Source: Thiobacillus sp. 63-78 (lineage in GTDB: Bacteria > Pseudomonadota > Gammaproteobacteria > Burkholderiales > Thiobacillaceae). From it: a DNA stretch of 64,000 bases. Shown here one piece after another: positions 4,235-34,481 of this stretch (within the stretch, counting starts at the first letter, position 1; each line of letters starts with the position of its first letter). The DNA is taken from contig MKWM01000017.1 of the NCBI GenBank assembly GCA_001899765.1, forward strand, positions 1-64,000, given 5' to 3'. The position numbers were made by a program, and so were the translations under genes. Below the pieces are notes generated by a model. That model saw only the letters and a program-made list of their open reading frames with translations, made no database searches and was not told the DNA's origin.

Positions 4235-5989
4235 TCAGCGCATTTTTTCGCGAAAGGTTTCCTCTTCGATAAAACTCCGGTTCGGCCTGAGCAGATCGCG
4301 CAGCGAAACGGTGCCGATGAGATTCATGCTGTCCAGATCCTGTACCACAGGCAGACAGCTTACTTCGAGCTGGGCCATGCGACCCGCGGCAAAACGGGCT
4401 GTCGCATTCGGCAGCAGCACGTGTTCGGGCAGCAGCGGAGCCAGCACATCCGCGCATCGCGCCAGGGAATGCCGATGCGCGCGCAGCGTGGGGTAATCCA
4501 CCATTCCCAGCACGCGCCCTTCGCTTGTCACGGGGTAGACCCGATCCAGATTGTAGTCGTCGTAGTAGTGCGACAAGGCATCCGCCACAGGGATGGTGCC
4601 GTCTATGGCAATGATCCTGGCGCTCATCAGATCGCTCACATGCTGCCGTTCCAGCGGGTCGGCGCCATATTCCCGGAAAATATGCAGGCCACGGCGCGCG
4701 ATCTTTTCGGTCATGATGGAGCGCTTCAGGGTGAGCGTGGTCAGGCCGTAGGCGACGGCGGTCGTCAGCATCAGCGGCAACAGCGCCTCGCTGTCGTGGG
4801 TGAGGCCGAAAGCAAAGACGATCGCGGTCAAGGGCGCACCGAGCGTGCTTCCCAGCACCCCCGCCATACAGACCAGCGCCCACAGTTCCGGCGAGGCGCC
4901 CGGCAGATAGGGCGCCAACAAGACGCCCAGCCCTGCGCCCAGTATCAGCAACGGAGCCAGCACGCCGCCCGAAGTGCCCGAACCAAGCGCCACCACCCAG
5001 ATCACCGCTTTCACCGCCAGGAGCGAAATTGCGGCGGCCACGAGCAGATGGCCATTGAGCAGGTCGCCGATGACATCGTAGCCCATGCCCAATGCGCGAG
5101 GCTCAAGATAGCCGCCGATCCCCACGATCAGCCCCCCGATTGCGGGCCACCACATCCAGTGCACCGGAAGCTTGTGGAAACAATCCTCGGTCTTGTAAAG
5201 CGCAAAGGTCAGCAGCACGGCCAGGGCGCCGCACAGCAAGCCCGCGACGACACACGAAACCAGGGCCATCATGGAAACCGGCTCAGTTTGCAGCGGGAAA
5301 AGCGGACCCGCAGGGAACACGAGACCGCGCAGGAAACCGGCCACGGCGCACGCAAGCGCCACCGGCAACAGGCTGCGCGGGCGCAATTCGAACAACAGCA
5401 GTTCGACTGCCAGCAGAAGCGCTGCGACAGGGGTGGAGAAAATAGCCGTCATGCCGGCGCATGCGCCCGCGACCAGCAAGGTTTTGCGCTCGGCGGCGGT
5501 CAGATGCAGATACTGCGCAACCAGCGAGCCCAACGATCCGCCTGTCATGATGATGGGGCCTTCGGCGCCAAACGGGCCCCCGCTGCCGATGACGATGCCC
5601 GAGGAAATCGGCTTGAGCACGGCCACTCTCGGCGACATCTGGCTCTTGCCGAACAGAATGGTCTCCATGGCCTCGGGAATGCCGTGCCCCCGGATCTTGT
5701 CACTGCCGTAACGCGCCATGAGTCCAACCAGCAGTCCGCCTATCGCCGGCACCAGGATGACTGCCAGCCCCAGCGCATTCTGGGCCGGCGACACAACCTC
5801 CCACGACAGACGCTGATAAAAAAACAGATTGGTGAAGAAGTGGATCAACGCGAGTAGCGCCGCCGCGGCGAACGTGCTGACGGCACCAATCAATATAGCG
5901 ACACCGGACACCATCACGAGCCGACGATCAACCGAATAATCGCTCTTGGCGTGTATCACACAATTTTCCCCGACTTCATTTGTACCCAT
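4235..5989 (-). CDS. CLC-type chloride channel/antiporter with CBS domains
   Basis: Integral membrane chloride channel or proton/chloride exchanger, 584 residues. About 10-12 membrane helices fill residues 20-440. The CLC anion-pathway motifs are visible: GSGGPFGAEGPI (equivalent of GREGP, with the gating glutamate kept) and GTSGGVLAPLL (GxFxP-like). Residues about 455-575 hold two CBS domains (VSDLMSARIIAIDG and the last 60 residues), which usually bind adenine nucleotides and regulate gating. It lies 110 bp upstream of oxyR on the same strand. Substrate preference (chloride, fluoride, nitrate) cannot be read from sequence alone. Confidence 0.88.
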   Translation of the reverse strand: MGTNEVGENCVIHAKSDYSVDRRLVMVSGVAILIGAVSTFAAAALLALIHFFTNLFFYQRLSWEVVSPAQNALGLAVILVPAIGGLLVGLMARYGSDKIRGHGIPEAMETILFGKSQMSPRVAVLKPISSGIVIGSGGPFGAEGPIIMTGGSLGSLVAQYLHLTAAERKTLLVAGACAGMTAIFSTPVAALLLAVELLLFELRPRSLLPVALACAVAGFLRGLVFPAGPLFPLQTEPVSMMALVSCVVAGLLCGALAVLLTFALYKTEDCFHKLPVHWMWWPAIGGLIVGIGGYLEPRALGMGYDVIGDLLNGHLLVAAAISLLAVKAVIWVVALGSGTSGGVLAPLLILGAGLGVLLAPYLPGASPELWALVCMAGVLGSTLGAPLTAIVFAFGLTHDSEALLPLMLTTAVAYGLTTLTLKRSIMTEKIARRGLHIFREYGADPLERQHVSDLMSARIIAIDGTIPVADALSHYYDDYNLDRVYPVTSEGRVLGMVDYPTLRAHRHSLARCADVLAPLLPEHVLLPNATARFAAGRMAQLEVSCLPVVQDLDSMNLIGTVSLRDLLRPNRSFIEEETFREKMR

Positions 5990-12436: not shown

Positions 12437-14515
<2,079 letters not shown>

Positions 14516-29906: not shown

Positions 29907-31856
29907 CTAAGCGCCTGCCGCCTCCAGCGCCTCGATCTCCCCCGACACCTCCAGCCACTCCCCTTCTTCTATCGCCAGCTCGTCAACAATGTGCTGCAGC
30001 TGCTTGCCGGTTTCGGTGATTTCATCGACTGACAGCGTTCCACCCAGACGCGCCTCGAACGCCGCCTTTTCCGCGTGCAGCGCCGCCATGCTTTGGTCGA
30101 GCTTTCCCAGTTTCTGCCTCAACGACTTGATCCTGCCCGACGACGCCGGCTTCTTCGCCGCCGCCGGCGCAATTTCCGCCTTGGGCGGTTCCGCCGCCTT
30201 GCCGGCGTCCTTCAGGCTTTCGCGCACGCGCTTCGCCTCGTCCAGCAGATAGCGCTGGTAATCATCGAGATCGCCGTCGAACGGCTCGACGCCGCCGCGC
30301 GTGACCAGCCAGAACTCGTCGCACACCGAACGCAGCAGGGCGCGATCGTGGCTGACCAGCATGACGGTGCCTTCGAATTCGTTCAAGGCCATCGCCAGCG
30401 CCTCGCGCGTGGCGAGATCGAGGTGGTTGGTCGGTTCGTCCAGCAACAGCAAATTCGGCCGCTGCCACACGATCATGCACAGCACCAGCCGCGCCTTCTC
30501 GCCGCCGCTCATGGTGCCGACCGCCTGCTTGACCATGTCGCCGCTGAAGTTGAAGGTGCCGAGGAAGTTGCGCAGATCCTGCTCGCGGCTGCTGAACTGG
30601 CCGGCGCCGCCATTCGCAATCGTGTCGCGGGCGAGGCGGATCATGTGTTCCAGCGGGGTATCCAGGGGGCGCAGCACGTCGAGTTCCTGCTGCGCGAAAT
30701 AGCCGATGTTCAGGCCCTTGCCCTCGGTCACGGCGCCGGCGGCGACCGCGAGGTCGCGCGCGATGGTCTTCACCAGCGTCGACTTGCCCTGGCCGTTGGC
30801 GCCGAGGATGCCGATGCGCTGGCCGGCGAACACCGACTTGCTGACGTGGCGCACGATCACCGTCGGCTCGCCCGCGCCGTCCGCCGGCGGGTAGCCGAAG
30901 CTGGCGTCGTCGATCGTCAGCATCGGGTTGGGCAGGTTCTGCGGCTCCTTGAATTCGAAGCTGAAGTCCGCGTTCGCCAGCATCGGCGCCAGTTTTTCCA
31001 TGCGGTCGAGCGCCTTGACCCGGCTTTGCGCCTGTTTGGCCTTGCTCGCCTTGGCCTTGAAGCGGTCGATGAAGGCCTGCAGGTGGGCGATCTTGTCCTG
31101 CTGGCGGGCGAACGCCGCCTGCTGCAGCGCCATCTGCTCGGCGCGCATGTCCTCGAAGCTGCTGTAGTGGCCGCCGTAGCGCGTCAACTGGCCATTCTCG
31201 ATGTGAAGGGTGACGCGGGTCACGGCGTCGAGAAATTCGCGGTCGTGGCTGATCACGAGCATGGTGCCGGGGTATTTTTTCAGCCAGGCCTCCAGCCACA
31301 CCAATGCGTCGAGATCGAGGTGGTTGGTCGGTTCGTCGAGCAGCAAGAGGTCGGACGGGCACATCAGCGCGCGCGCCAACTGTAGTCTCATGCGCCAGCC
31401 GCCGGAAAAGCTGTTGACCGGCCGATCCAGTTCGCGCACCTGGAAGCCGAGGCCGAGAATCAAGGCCTGCGCGCGCGACTGCGCGTCGTGGGCGCCGGCG
31501 TCGTGCAGCGCCATGTAAGCGTGCGCCATGCGCTCGCCGTCGTCGCTCGCTTCGGCGGCAGCGACCTCGGCCTGCGCTTCGGCCAATTGAGTGTCGCCGG
31601 CGATGACGAAGTCGGTCGCGGATTCGCGCGTCTCCGGCATGTCCTGCGCCACCTGCGCCATGCGCCACTGCGACGGCATCGAAAAGTCGCCGCGGTCCTC
31701 GTGCAGGCTGCCGTTCAATAGCGCGAACAGGCTGGATTTGCCGGCGCCGTTGCGGCCGACCAGGCCGACCTTTTCGCCGGGGTTGATCGATACCGACGCG
31801 TTGTCGAGCAGGACCTTGGCGCTACGCCTGAGGCTGAGATTCTTGAGGATGATCAT
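29907..31856 (-). CDS. ABC-F family ATPase, YheS/Uup type
   Basis: Soluble protein with two ABC ATPase domains and no membrane part, 649 residues, of the ribosome-associated ABC-F group. I chose the ATG at 31856 (MIILKNLSLRRSAKVLLDN), which matches family N-termini. Walker A motifs are GLVGRNGAGKSSL (about residue 33) and GILGANGQGKSTLVKTI (about 345); signatures SFSGGWRMRL and MSGGEKARLVL; Walker B LLLLDEPTNHLD twice. The linker between domains is rich in Lys and Ala (P-site tRNA-interaction motif region), and the C-terminus has a predicted coiled coil (IKSLRQKLGKLDQSMAALHA). YheS-like length favours that subgroup. Confidence 0.88.
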   Translation of the reverse strand: MIILKNLSLRRSAKVLLDNASVSINPGEKVGLVGRNGAGKSSLFALLNGSLHEDRGDFSMPSQWRMAQVAQDMPETRESATDFVIAGDTQLAEAQAEVAAAEASDDGERMAHAYMALHDAGAHDAQSRAQALILGLGFQVRELDRPVNSFSGGWRMRLQLARALMCPSDLLLLDEPTNHLDLDALVWLEAWLKKYPGTMLVISHDREFLDAVTRVTLHIENGQLTRYGGHYSSFEDMRAEQMALQQAAFARQQDKIAHLQAFIDRFKAKASKAKQAQSRVKALDRMEKLAPMLANADFSFEFKEPQNLPNPMLTIDDASFGYPPADGAGEPTVIVRHVSKSVFAGQRIGILGANGQGKSTLVKTIARDLAVAAGAVTEGKGLNIGYFAQQELDVLRPLDTPLEHMIRLARDTIANGGAGQFSSREQDLRNFLGTFNFSGDMVKQAVGTMSGGEKARLVLCMIVWQRPNLLLLDEPTNHLDLATREALAMALNEFEGTVMLVSHDRALLRSVCDEFWLVTRGGVEPFDGDLDDYQRYLLDEAKRVRESLKDAGKAAEPPKAEIAPAAAKKPASSGRIKSLRQKLGKLDQSMAALHAEKAAFEARLGGTLSVDEITETGKQLQHIVDELAIEEGEWLEVSGEIEALEAAGA

Positions 31857-31937: not shown

Positions 31938-31985
31938 GTGTCGACTGTTTAACGCTTCGACACGGGATGACGGTTTTCCGTCATC
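31938..31985. promoter_or_regulatory. Two dyads, possible enhancer for the sigma-54 promoter
   Basis: GTGTCGA (31938-31944) pairs with TCGACAC (31957-31963), and directly beside it GATGACGG (31966-31973) pairs with CCGTCATC (31978-31985). Both dyads are perfect. They lie about 120-165 bp upstream of the expected start of the sigma-54 transcript, where binding sites of bacterial enhancer-binding proteins are usually found. That role is inferred from position and symmetry only. Confidence 0.4.
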
Positions 31986-32077: not shown

Positions 32078-32093
32078 TGGCACAGGCATTGCA
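32078..32093 (+). promoter_or_regulatory. Sigma-54 (RpoN) -24/-12 promoter
   Basis: TGGCACAGGCATTGCA fits the consensus TGGCACRNNNNTTGCW at every defined position. Transcription should begin near 32104, 26 bp before the ATG of the first small ORF, with AAGGAG at 32118-32123 in the leader. An A/T-rich tract at about 32032-32055 lies between the promoter and the upstream dyads and could bind IHF. No rpoN or enhancer-binding-protein gene is in the window. Confidence 0.8.
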
Positions 32094-32129
32094 GGTATTC
32101 AGGCAAGCAAGCCAACCAAGGAGCACATC

Positions 32130-32282
32130 ATGAAACTGCAATTCGGCAAAAACCAACTGGTTCTCGAACTCAGCTCCTCGCCCTTTGCCTGGTTTTACGG
32201 CCAGACCGAACGCATGAGTCTCACCAGCCTGTCGCTGCTGTTCGTGCAATTCTCGCTGTTTGCCCGTCAGCCAGCCGCCTGA
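32130..32282 (+). CDS. Small protein A of a tandem sigma-54-driven pair
   Basis: A 50-residue protein that I do not recognise. Support for it being real: perfect AAGGAG six bases before the ATG, a consensus sigma-54 promoter just upstream, and a neighbour encoding a related product. Residues 10-45 hold the shared pattern (LELSSSPFAWFYG, then RMSLTSLSLLFVQF). The segment from about residue 29 to 45 is hydrophobic and could form a short membrane or amphipathic helix. There is no signal peptide and no cysteine. The stop codon overlaps the ATG of the next ORF (TGATG). Confidence 0.7.
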   Translation: MKLQFGKNQLVLELSSSPFAWFYGQTERMSLTSLSLLFVQFSLFARQPAA

Positions 32283-32437
32283 TGCAAGTCGGCCGAGCCA
32301 CCAGCGTGAGTTTCAATCTGTCTCGTTCACCGCTGGGATTCTTTAGCGGCAGCACCTGTCGCATGTCGATGTTCAGCCTGACGCTGCTGTTCGTCGAATT
32401 CCGGGTGCTGCGACGCACGGCCGCGCACTGCGCGTGA
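32282..32437 (+). CDS. Small protein B, paralogue of small protein A
   Basis: A 51-residue protein starting at the TGATG overlap with the previous ORF, so probably translated by coupling. It aligns without gaps to small protein A over about 38 residues with 18 identities, including L-S-x-S-P, F-x-G-x-T-x-RMS, SL-x-LLFV-x-F and a final R. It differs by carrying two cysteines (STCRMS and AHCA) and a more basic tail (RVLRRTAAHCA). It ends 4 bp from the convergent end of the histidine kinase gene. No function can be assigned. Confidence 0.65.
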   Translation: MQVGRATSVSFNLSRSPLGFFSGSTCRMSMFSLTLLFVEFRVLRRTAAHCA

Positions 32438-32441
32438 CCGC

Positions 32442-33728
32442 TTAACGAAGAATTTCCAGTATCGCCTCCAGCCCGCCTTGCGGGCGGTTGCGCAACACCA
32501 CTTTCAAACCGTTCGTTTCCGCCAGTTGGCGCACGATCGCCAGCCCCAGCCCGGTTCCACCGGTCGCCTGCGAACGCGACGTTTCCAGCCGATAGAACGG
32601 CCTGAACACTTTTTCCAGTTGATCGTCCGGAATCCCGGCACCGCGATCGCGCACGATCACCCGCGCCAGCGTATCCGCGCACTCCAGAACCAGATCGACG
32701 GGCGTGCCGCCGCCGTAGCGCTGCGCATTCTGGATCAGGTTCGACACGATTTGCCGCACCGCCAGTCGACTGGTCTCGATCATGCATGGCGCGGCGCCTG
32801 GCCACGGCAGGCCCGCATCGACCGCCGCCTCCTCCAGCAGCTGTGCCAGGTCGAAACGCGCCCGGCCTTCCGTCTGGGTGGTACGTGCCAACTCCATATA
32901 CCCGATGATCAGCTTGTTCATGTCGGCCAGATCCGCGACGGCCCGGTCGATGCGCGCCGGGCTGGGGGCGTCGCGCAGCATTTCCAGATTGAGCTGCAGG
33001 CGTGTCATGGGCGTGCGGAGATCATGCGAGATGCCCGCCAGCAAGGTCGTGCGGTTGTCCAGCAACGCACGGACCTCGGCCGCCATGGTATTGAAGCGAC
33101 GCGCCAGTTCTGCCAGCTCGGCGGGACCGGTTTCCGGCAAGGGCTCCGGGAGTTCGCCTGCGCCGACCTGGCCGGCCGCGTCCGCTGCGCGCGCCAGCGG
33201 TACCGTGATGCGGCGTACCAGAAACAGGGCCGTCAGCAGACTGAGGAACGTGCCCAGAGCAATCACCGCAATCGCCGCCAGCGGCGGCTTGACGGCGTAG
33301 CGGCGCGGAAAAAAGCCGACATGCAGGTCGTGGCCGCCGACCGGAATGTCCAGCCAGGCGGCGACCGTTCCGGGCACCCCGCGCAAGACCACATTGTCCC
33401 CTACGCGCCTGCTCAACGCGGCCTCGATCTGGGGGCGAAAGGCAAAGCGCGGTGCGTCGGCCGTGGCGCCGATGTCGACCGTGGTCAGGCGCAAACCATG
33501 GCGACGCGCCAGCTCGCGCTCGAATGCCGCACGCGTCGGCGGCGGCAGTTCCACCCAGGTTTGCGCCGACAGCACGATCAGGCCCGCCAGATCGTCGGCC
33601 GAGCGTTCCGCCACCGGCACGATCAGCGTGCGATACACCACCCAGAATGCGGCCGCCTGAAACACGATGAACGCCAGCGCCAGGGTCAGCGCGGTGCGGG
33701 CGAACAGCGAGCGGGGAAAGAACTTCAC
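32442..33728 (-). CDS. envZ: Sensor histidine kinase, EnvZ-like
   Basis: Inner-membrane sensor kinase of an OmpR-type two-component system, 428 residues. Two membrane helices (about 12-34 and 149-171) flank a periplasmic domain of some 115 residues; a HAMP domain follows (RRITVPLARAADAAGQVGAG). The phosphorylated histidine is His235 in AGISHDLRTPMTRLQ, identical in style to EnvZ. ATP-binding boxes are NLIQNAQRYGGG (N), RDRGAGIPDDQL (G1) and GTGLGLAIVRQ (G2). It overlaps ompR by 4 bp. The stimulus is unknown; envelope or osmotic stress is the family expectation. Confidence 0.87.
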   Translation of the reverse strand: MKFFPRSLFARTALTLALAFIVFQAAAFWVVYRTLIVPVAERSADDLAGLIVLSAQTWVELPPPTRAAFERELARRHGLRLTTVDIGATADAPRFAFRPQIEAALSRRVGDNVVLRGVPGTVAAWLDIPVGGHDLHVGFFPRRYAVKPPLAAIAVIALGTFLSLLTALFLVRRITVPLARAADAAGQVGAGELPEPLPETGPAELAELARRFNTMAAEVRALLDNRTTLLAGISHDLRTPMTRLQLNLEMLRDAPSPARIDRAVADLADMNKLIIGYMELARTTQTEGRARFDLAQLLEEAAVDAGLPWPGAAPCMIETSRLAVRQIVSNLIQNAQRYGGGTPVDLVLECADTLARVIVRDRGAGIPDDQLEKVFRPFYRLETSRSQATGGTGLGLAIVRQLAETNGLKVVLRNRPQGGLEAILEILR

Positions 33729-34438
33729 CCCTTGCCCTGCGGCACGAACAGGTAACCCTGTCCGCGCTGGGTGCGGATATAGGCGGGATTTGCCGGATCG
33801 TCCTCGATCTTCTTGCGCAGGCGATTCACCCGCACATCGATACTGCGGTCAAAGGGATCGCGTTCGAAACCCCGCAGCTGGTCCATCAGCCAGTCGCGTG
33901 ACAGCGCGCGGTTGGCATGGGTGACGAAGATTTCCAGCAGTTCGTATTCGCCGCCGGTCAGCGGGATTTCAGCGTCGCCGCGATGAAGGGTGCGGGCGTC
34001 GAGATTGACGCTGAACGGGCCGAAGCGCACCAGCCGGGCGGTTCCAGCCGTGACCGGTACGGTGACGTCATTCTGCCGCCGCAGTACCGCACGAATGCGG
34101 GCCAGCAGTTCGCGCGGATTGAACGGCTTGGGCAGATAGTCATCCGCGCCGATTTCAAGGCCGATGATGCGGTCGATGTCCTCGCCCCTGGCGGACAGCA
34201 TGATGATGGGGGGAAAGCCCGGCTGCGCGCGCAGCCGCCGCGCGATCGACAGGCCATCCTCGCCGGGCATCATCCAGTCGAGCACCAGCAGATCCGGCTG
34301 ACGGACGGCAAGCAAACGATCGAGCGCGGACGCATCTTCGGCCGTTTCGACCCGATAACCCTGGCTCGTCAGGTATTCGGCCACCAGTTCGCGGATGCCC
34401 GGATCGTCATCGGTCACATAAATGCTGTCTTTTTCCAT
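33725..34438 (-). CDS. ompR: Two-component response regulator, OmpR
   Basis: Response regulator of 237 residues: receiver domain with acidic pocket (TDDDPG) and phospho-acceptor Asp54 (VLDWMMPGEDGLSIARRLRA), then a winged-helix DNA-binding domain from about residue 135. The block DRIIGLEIGADDYLPKPFNP is nearly identical to E. coli OmpR, and the C-terminus also ends in FVP. I used the ATG at 34438 (MEKDSIYVTDD). It is divergent from three exported-protein genes, and two GTTACA repeats in the shared upstream region are candidate binding sites. Confidence 0.88.
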   Translation of the reverse strand: MEKDSIYVTDDDPGIRELVAEYLTSQGYRVETAEDASALDRLLAVRQPDLLVLDWMMPGEDGLSIARRLRAQPGFPPIIMLSARGEDIDRIIGLEIGADDYLPKPFNPRELLARIRAVLRRQNDVTVPVTAGTARLVRFGPFSVNLDARTLHRGDAEIPLTGGEYELLEIFVTHANRALSRDWLMDQLRGFERDPFDRSIDVRVNRLRKKIEDDPANPAYIRTQRGQGYLFVPQGKG

Positions 34439-34481
34439 GCGCAAACTATAGCAGCGGGCAGATGCCTGCATGACCCATCCG

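Follow-up and report, generated by a model that had tools for sequence, protein, structure and literature searches.

The 64 000-nucleotide stretch of the Thiobacillus sp. 63-78 genome analyzed here (hereafter, the window) contains a locus that, to judge from its sequence, is a two-gene operon of small proteins with a sigma-54 promoter in front. The features of the locus and its surroundings are as follows:

29907..31856, minus strand: ABC-F type ATPase gene, divergent neighbor outside the system (family named from the sequence, without a family search)
31956..31963: TTCGACAC, conserved element to the left of the enhancer-like site (TTCG[AT]C[AG]C in 33 of 44 loci)
31968..31983: TGACGGTTTTCCGTCA, palindromic enhancer-like site, putative activator binding site (conservation, recurrence elsewhere)
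32078..32093, plus strand: sigma-54 promoter, -24/-12 (TGGCAC-N5-TTGC; direct reading, pattern counts, conservation across 44 loci)
32118..32123, plus strand: ribosome binding site AAGGAG, 6 nt 5' of the ATG, with GGAG kept there in most loci
32130..32282, plus strand: ORF1, first small protein, 50 amino acids
32282..32437, plus strand: ORF2, 51 amino acids, paralog of ORF1, its start overlapping the ORF1 stop (TGATG)
32442..33728, minus strand: EnvZ-like sensor kinase, convergent neighbor outside the system (named from the sequence)
33725-34471: OmpR-like regulator beyond the EnvZ-like kinase, outside the system (named from the sequence)

An earlier, sequence-only reading of this DNA had described the promoter, the AAGGAG and the two TGATG-coupled ORFs of 50 and 51 codons, and all of these are confirmed by direct reading, with TGGCACAGGCATTGCA at 32078-32093 conforming to the -24/-12 consensus. 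The pattern TGGCAYNNNNNTTGCW occurs once in the 64-kb window vs 0.18 occurrences expected, and the 3.2 Mb genome contains 11 instances of TGGCAYRNNNNTTGCW vs none of the reversed control pattern. The sigma-54 control that had been claimed is borne out by the conservation of the promoter: GGCA[CT][AG]N4TTGC is found in 44 of 44 Thiobacillus-type loci, with the GG located 49-53 nt 5' of the start codon. RpoN is encoded in the same genome, on the contig that also carries the pilus cluster discussed below. The length of ORF1 is 50 codons in all 44 loci, and the start of ORF2 lies within the ORF1 stop, the arrangement expected of coupling, in 41 of the 44.

The products of the two ORFs are clearly related, with 22 of 48 residues identical in a BLASTP alignment with one gap (E=8e-12). 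The gap-free alignment over about 38 residues reported previously stands, comprising the last 38 residues of both proteins, and the number of identities changes from 18 to 19 on a by-eye recount. Selection was measured over 46 codons in 43 distinct ORF1 and 44 distinct ORF2 sequences from the 44 loci. The pooled pN/pS and the median dN/dS are 0.181 and 0.124, respectively, for ORF1, and 0.343 and 0.253 for ORF2; the variable sites are distributed by codon position as 22/9/41 (of 46) in ORF1 and 33/20/40 (of 46) in ORF2. Purifying selection acts on both ORFs. The dN/dS comparison that had been suggested as a check thus gives pN/pS values far under 1 for both, and a tandem duplication maintained by selection at the protein level is further indicated by the separate grouping of the copies in bootstrap trees (see below). 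Given the codon-position pattern and the pN/pS of 0.18 of ORF1, along with its invariant length, the probability that the locus encodes a structured RNA or is a chance ORF pair, rather than a pair of proteins, is negligible; the search for structured RNAs in the 64-kb window produced no Rfam match.

By sequence comparison, the pair is a conserved small-protein family without a name. Neither ORF1 nor ORF2 matches any Pfam or NCBIfam family even at E=10, and a set of 24 relatives yields nothing against Pfam and PADLOC; the matches obtained against NCBIfam (a single VPDSG-CTERM match at E=0.1) and PHROGs (E of 0.1 at best) do not exceed chance level. The best match among PDB sequences (E=0.31) is not a convincing relative. 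These results are in agreement with the previous statement that the products belong to no recognized family. The test for type IV prepilins detected no N_methyl match (motif GFTLxE) in ORF1, ORF2 or the 24 relatives, and the test for PEP-CTERM proteins (C-terminal PEP motif, helix and basic end) found no Pfam or NCBIfam match for ORF1 and ORF2. The contrast in cysteine content between the copies, to which attention had been drawn, fades on comparison, as the relatives do not retain the two ORF2 cysteines.

The usual threshold for a membrane helix is a 19-residue Kyte-Doolittle mean of 1.6, and the best such mean is 0.89-1.35 in eight representatives, so that all eight fall below it; the suggestion that the peptides are membrane-acting is therefore abandoned. 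A membrane-acting or stress peptide pair, or else a pair of the toxin-antitoxin type, would be compatible with products that are small, partly hydrophobic, conserved and tightly controlled, and with a C-terminal helix as the best AlphaFold segment (pLDDT 74-79 in its best block). Nevertheless, such explanations are improbable considering the hydropathy values, the presence of Glu and Arg inside the ORF2 core, the lack of a PADLOC match, and the observation that, unlike toxin and antitoxin, the products are paralogous, with just one copy present in one of the families. The AlphaFold models have low confidence (mean pLDDT of 60.2 and 59.9), so that they provide no structural support for any role. 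A beta-hairpin fold is no more than a possibility: although alternation (160-180 degrees) exceeds the helical moment (100 degrees) in eight of eight core segments, the best moment angle is 110-115 degrees in three of these, and AlphaFold prefers a weak helix. Because inspection and hydropathy reveal no signal peptide or membrane helix, the pair is placed in the cytoplasm.

ORF1 is matched at E<=0.01 in 53 of the 117 genomes of the family Thiobacillaceae, that is, in 48 of 56 genomes of the genus Thiobacillus, with two matches in each, and, beyond this genus, in three g4 and two g12 genomes; the pair is present in three genera of Thiobacillaceae. The second ORF of g4 is strongly diverged and retains the pattern F-x-G-x-T-x-R-h-S-L (h, hydrophobic), and several other genera of the family show weak partial matches in a profile search (E<=0.5). 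In a second family, f50, a profile search detects a single, longer, distant copy in 8 of 10 genomes, all from one genus of the two. An order-level search yielded matches in 11 of 399 genomes, of which four belong to the same genus and five to f50, and the matches in G242 and G368 are attributable to chance (an internal stop or a partial match). A class-level search yielded two matches among 369 genomes, the genome analyzed here and G606, the latter also judged to be due to chance, and searches of phage, viral and plasmid records revealed no relative of the pair. Thus, the search for homologs that had been proposed as a check does identify protein-level homologs in related genomes. Bootstrapping of a tree of 38 short sequences separates the ORF1 rows from the ORF2 rows, with 92% and 86% of replicates recovering the two groups and modest support figures (90/80 and 87/74), and because the groups are separate, the duplication appears to predate the split of the three genera.

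The single-copy relative in f50 is likewise located behind a sigma-54 promoter. In the seven of eight homologs counted (G346 was left out), GG[CT]A[CTG]N5[TC]TGC is found in 7 of 7 promoters, 50-52 nt 5' of the start codon. In 6 of these 7 promoters (L093-L097, L116, L117), the -24 GG is preceded, at a constant distance of 30 nt, by an IHF-like site, which is found in 0 of the 44 Thiobacillus loci and 0 of 7 other loci scanned.

In tblastn searches, the ABC-F ATPase is found upstream of the pair in 43 of 43 loci and an EnvZ-like kinase beside it in 37 of 43, where the count is affected by two loci (L047 and L049) in which the sequence ends at the kinase position. It could be supposed from this linkage, which extends over three genera, that the pair serves the adjacent EnvZ/OmpR-type two-component genes. 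However, in four loci (L037, L045, L051 and L059), the downstream sequence extends beyond 3.8 kb without a kinase, and the f50 neighborhoods contain no kinase match and one weak, 31% OmpR match (in L117); the linkage to EnvZ was accordingly dismissed, and a function in this two-component system is very unlikely.

The upstream region of the operon contains a feature that the sequence-only reading missed, namely, an enhancer-like site that is shared with a pilus cluster. The 16-nt palindrome is located ~111 nt upstream of the -24 GG, and is the only match in the genome at up to two mismatches. The sequence TGACGG-N4-CCGTCA is present in 36 of the 44 loci, in 35 of them 110-113 nt and in one 99 nt before the -24 GG, and TGWCG-N6-CGTCA is found with zero mismatches in 41 of the 44. 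The g4 and g12 small-protein promoters have related sites 98-111 nt upstream, for which 1-5 of 1000 shuffles are as good. The conserved element at 31956-31963 is possibly an extra half-site.

The pilus cluster in question is of the MSHA type and lies elsewhere in the genome (G000), headed by a gene for a sigma-54 activator (bEBP) denoted L128:

G000:C34:46088-47515: L128 bEBP gene, head of the MSHA-type pilus cluster

The L128 protein consists of 476 amino acids, with receiver, sigma-54 activation and Fis-type domains. Downstream of it, on the same strand, are the genes for an AAA/SPOR protein, a secretin (MshL, 255.6 vs the NCBIfam cut-off of 250.2), an ATPase with an MshEN domain and a c-di-GMP motif, and a GspF-like protein, and a prepilin (N_methyl) is encoded ~13 kb further on. 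Of 6 bEBP neighborhoods, 3 include a prepilin gene preceded by a strong sigma-54 promoter, a count that weighs against the regulatory reading given below.

A matrix built solely from 13 distinct Thiobacillus small-protein sites, and scored against 1000 dinucleotide shuffles, shows that the enhancer-like site recurs both at the sigma-54 promoter of the prepilin of the MSHA-type cluster and at the start of the activator gene of that cluster. At the L128-type gene, the score was equaled or exceeded by 2 of 1000 shuffles in G000, 0 in G068, 0 in G004, 0 in G113 and 2 in G248; in G209, where 633 of 1000 shuffles were as good, the site is absent. At the prepilin promoter, the respective numbers are 4 in G000, 0 in G113 and 0 in G068. 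The site was not found at 20 controls from the same genome (12 other bEBP genes and 8 other sigma-54 promoters; 56-956 of 1000 shuffles), with the reservation that several control bEBP start codons were guessed so that control windows may be misplaced. Two other tests gave less distinct results, a cruder one for the G000 prepilin site (86 of 400 shuffles as good) and a half-site test for the G113 prepilin (51 of 300). A scan of 140 904 bases of the own genome yields three sites of at least 14.4 bits, at the operon (23.3), the prepilin (16.0) and the bEBP gene (14.4), followed by a chance site of 14.1 bits, and in 146 843 bases of relatives, six of the eight sites at or above 14.4 bits are at prepilin or L128 genes; as the scanned stretches were chosen for bEBP and pilin genes, these counts do not represent a genome-wide rate. 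The matrix recognizes 0 of 7 f50 small-protein promoters, where the site would have either drifted or been replaced through rewiring to PrsR. At the L128 gene itself, the site is found just past the -10-like TGGCACAAT in G000, G068 and G248, with a variant in G113, a position that suggests negative autoregulation of L128.

Several features of individual loci were observed along the way. In L205 (G004), a matrix site of 16.0 bits at position 13172 lies ~1.1 kb before the L128-type gene. In L207 (G113), two matrix sites upstream of the prepilin promoter, at 5882 and 5902, start 20 nt apart, a spacing as for a tandem enhancer. In L203 (G000:C34:18000-37000), the prepilin has stacked sigma-54 sites on the minus strand, TGGCACCAGCGTTGCA and TGGCACGCATTTTGCA, at ~15156 and ~15254, 98 nt apart, and the upstream one lies in a region that the enhancer-like site overlaps.

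The genome encodes 13 bEBPs, and in a comparison of the bEBP repertoires of seven genomes, in which 56 of 62 proteins were recovered (L124, L126, L145, L180, L187 and L192 were dropped), reciprocal best hits show four activators, NtrC-type, PilR-like, PrsR and L128, to be common to all four pair-bearing genomes; the L128 orthologs from the three relatives are 69-89% identical. Of these four activators, the pair-less g12 genome G111 lacks PrsR and L128 only. Two of the three genomes without the pair, G068 and G209, have both PrsR and L128, so that the link is not obligatory; in favor of it, the pair-less G209 is also the genome without the site at its L128-type gene. The L128-type bEBP probably binds the palindrome at 31968-31983, and the best reading of the shared site is a regulatory link that would place the pair in the L128 regulon.

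The presence of PrsR in all four pair-bearing genomes and its absence from G111 make it a candidate too, in which case the pair would belong to a PEP-CTERM/exopolysaccharide regulon. A true PrsR is encoded in the genome (TIGR02915, 778 bits vs the cut-off of 502.6), which also has nine PEP-CTERM matches above cut-off, and in f50, a relaxed TGTCG-N9-ACA site is present in 7 of 7 promoters, 66-75 nt upstream of the -24 GG, a distance near the PrsR spacer of 62.8 (SD 10.6) nt given in the excerpt of Haft et al. 2006 that covers their predicted PrsR sites for PEP-CTERM genes (PMC1569441). However, the Thiobacillus site is of the CCGTCA type, not the TTTACA type, and lies ~95 nt from the promoter, past the maximum of 92 nt in the same excerpt (PMC1569441), and the search for the PrsR/PEP-CTERM motif (17 nt, ending in TTTACA, 32-92 nt from the promoter) did not find it in Thiobacillus. 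Moreover, 0 of 6 PEP-CTERM promoters tested match TGWCG-N6-CGTCA within two mismatches, and the matrix score at the PrsR gene is matched by 152 of 1000 shuffles. Control by PrsR is therefore unlikely.

Another bEBP, such as PilR, NtrC or one outside the comparison, is an equally unlikely activator. PilR-like and NtrC-type bEBPs are found in all four pair-bearing genomes, two bEBPs of the own genome (L124 and L126) fell outside the comparison, and Pseudomonas PilR binds (C/G)TGTC repeats, which do occur at this locus. However, neither the PilR-like nor the NtrC-type protein discriminates G111, and the L128-type gene is the sole one of the 13 bEBP genes in the genome at which the matrix gives a score.

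Under the preferred reading, with L128 as the activator, a signal would cause this response-regulator bEBP to bind the palindrome, and the bound protein would loop to the sigma-54 polymerase, so that the operon promoter fires together with that of the prepilin. The same bEBP would activate the prepilin of the pilus cluster and also bind where its own gene begins, repressing it. Translational coupling would ensure that ORF1 and ORF2 are made in step, most likely as a matched cytoplasmic pair, perhaps a hetero-oligomer, that would assist or regulate the surface-attached state in which the cell bears pili. For the proposal as a whole, a coupled pair driven by an L128-type bEBP and sigma-54 that plays an accessory part in the piliated state, the chances appear to be about even. 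Taken separately, direct contact between the two products is plausible but somewhat short of an even chance, and service of the pair in the pilus or attachment state is a more tentative suggestion still. An extended version, in which the family is a built-in effector or checkpoint of the piliated state that an autoregulated sigma-54 activator switches on along with the MSHA-type prepilin, with the paralogs co-assembling to tune pilus function or the attached-cell program and the ancestor-like single copy of f50 doing the same alone, is speculative and rather unlikely.

The closest parallels come from surface-related systems. The excerpt on PEP-CTERM genes controlled by PrsK/PrsR (PMC1569441) describes a sigma-54 promoter with a 16-17 nt upstream activator site, a response-regulator bEBP as the activator (putative in the present case) and surface-related products; the Thiobacillus pair differs from the genes in that excerpt by its site and spacing, and furthermore, consists of two coupled paralogs without a signal peptide or PEP-CTERM. 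The part consulted of a report on Aquincola tertiaricarbonis (PMC9850573) links floc formation to an RpoN-dependent PEP-CTERM gene, pepA, a single small operon with a mapped TGGCAC -24 element and an aggregate/floc phenotype. The -24 element is shared with the pair, whereas PepA, a PEP-CTERM protein according to that part of the report (PMC9850573), is an unrelated product. With MSHA-type (type IV) pilus clusters, the pair has in common the putative enhancer site and, presumably, the activator, but unlike the components of these clusters, it is encoded apart (contig C17 vs C34), and no pilus protein of Pfam or NCBIfam is similar to it.

Small proteins are often overlooked by annotation and seldom come with a functional clue. 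Here, an unnamed conserved family is accompanied by predictions of its activator, its enhancer site and a co-regulated structure in the sulfur-oxidizing, non-pathogenic Thiobacillus, and the proposal would define a target set for the conserved sigma-54 activator of the MSHA cluster. In the open-licence literature searched, nothing specific was found on the targets of this activator, and no paper on the small-protein pair.

Three additional observations concern other sigma-54-related loci. At the PEP-CTERM loci L133-L140 of G000, TGTCG-N9-ACA, presumably a site for PrsR, is found at 6 of 8 genes read by eye. A 562-aa protein with no Pfam or NCBIfam match is encoded just upstream of the bEBP gene (L142:10716-12401, minus strand), and its relative in G068 has a sigma-54-like site in front. 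Finally, at L196 (G000:C18:88069, minus strand), a TGTCGAATTAATTTACA site accompanies a strong sigma-54 promoter; of the ORFs found downstream, the longest, at +342, encodes what we take to be an ArgJ-like protein, so that a shorter intervening gene may have been overlooked.
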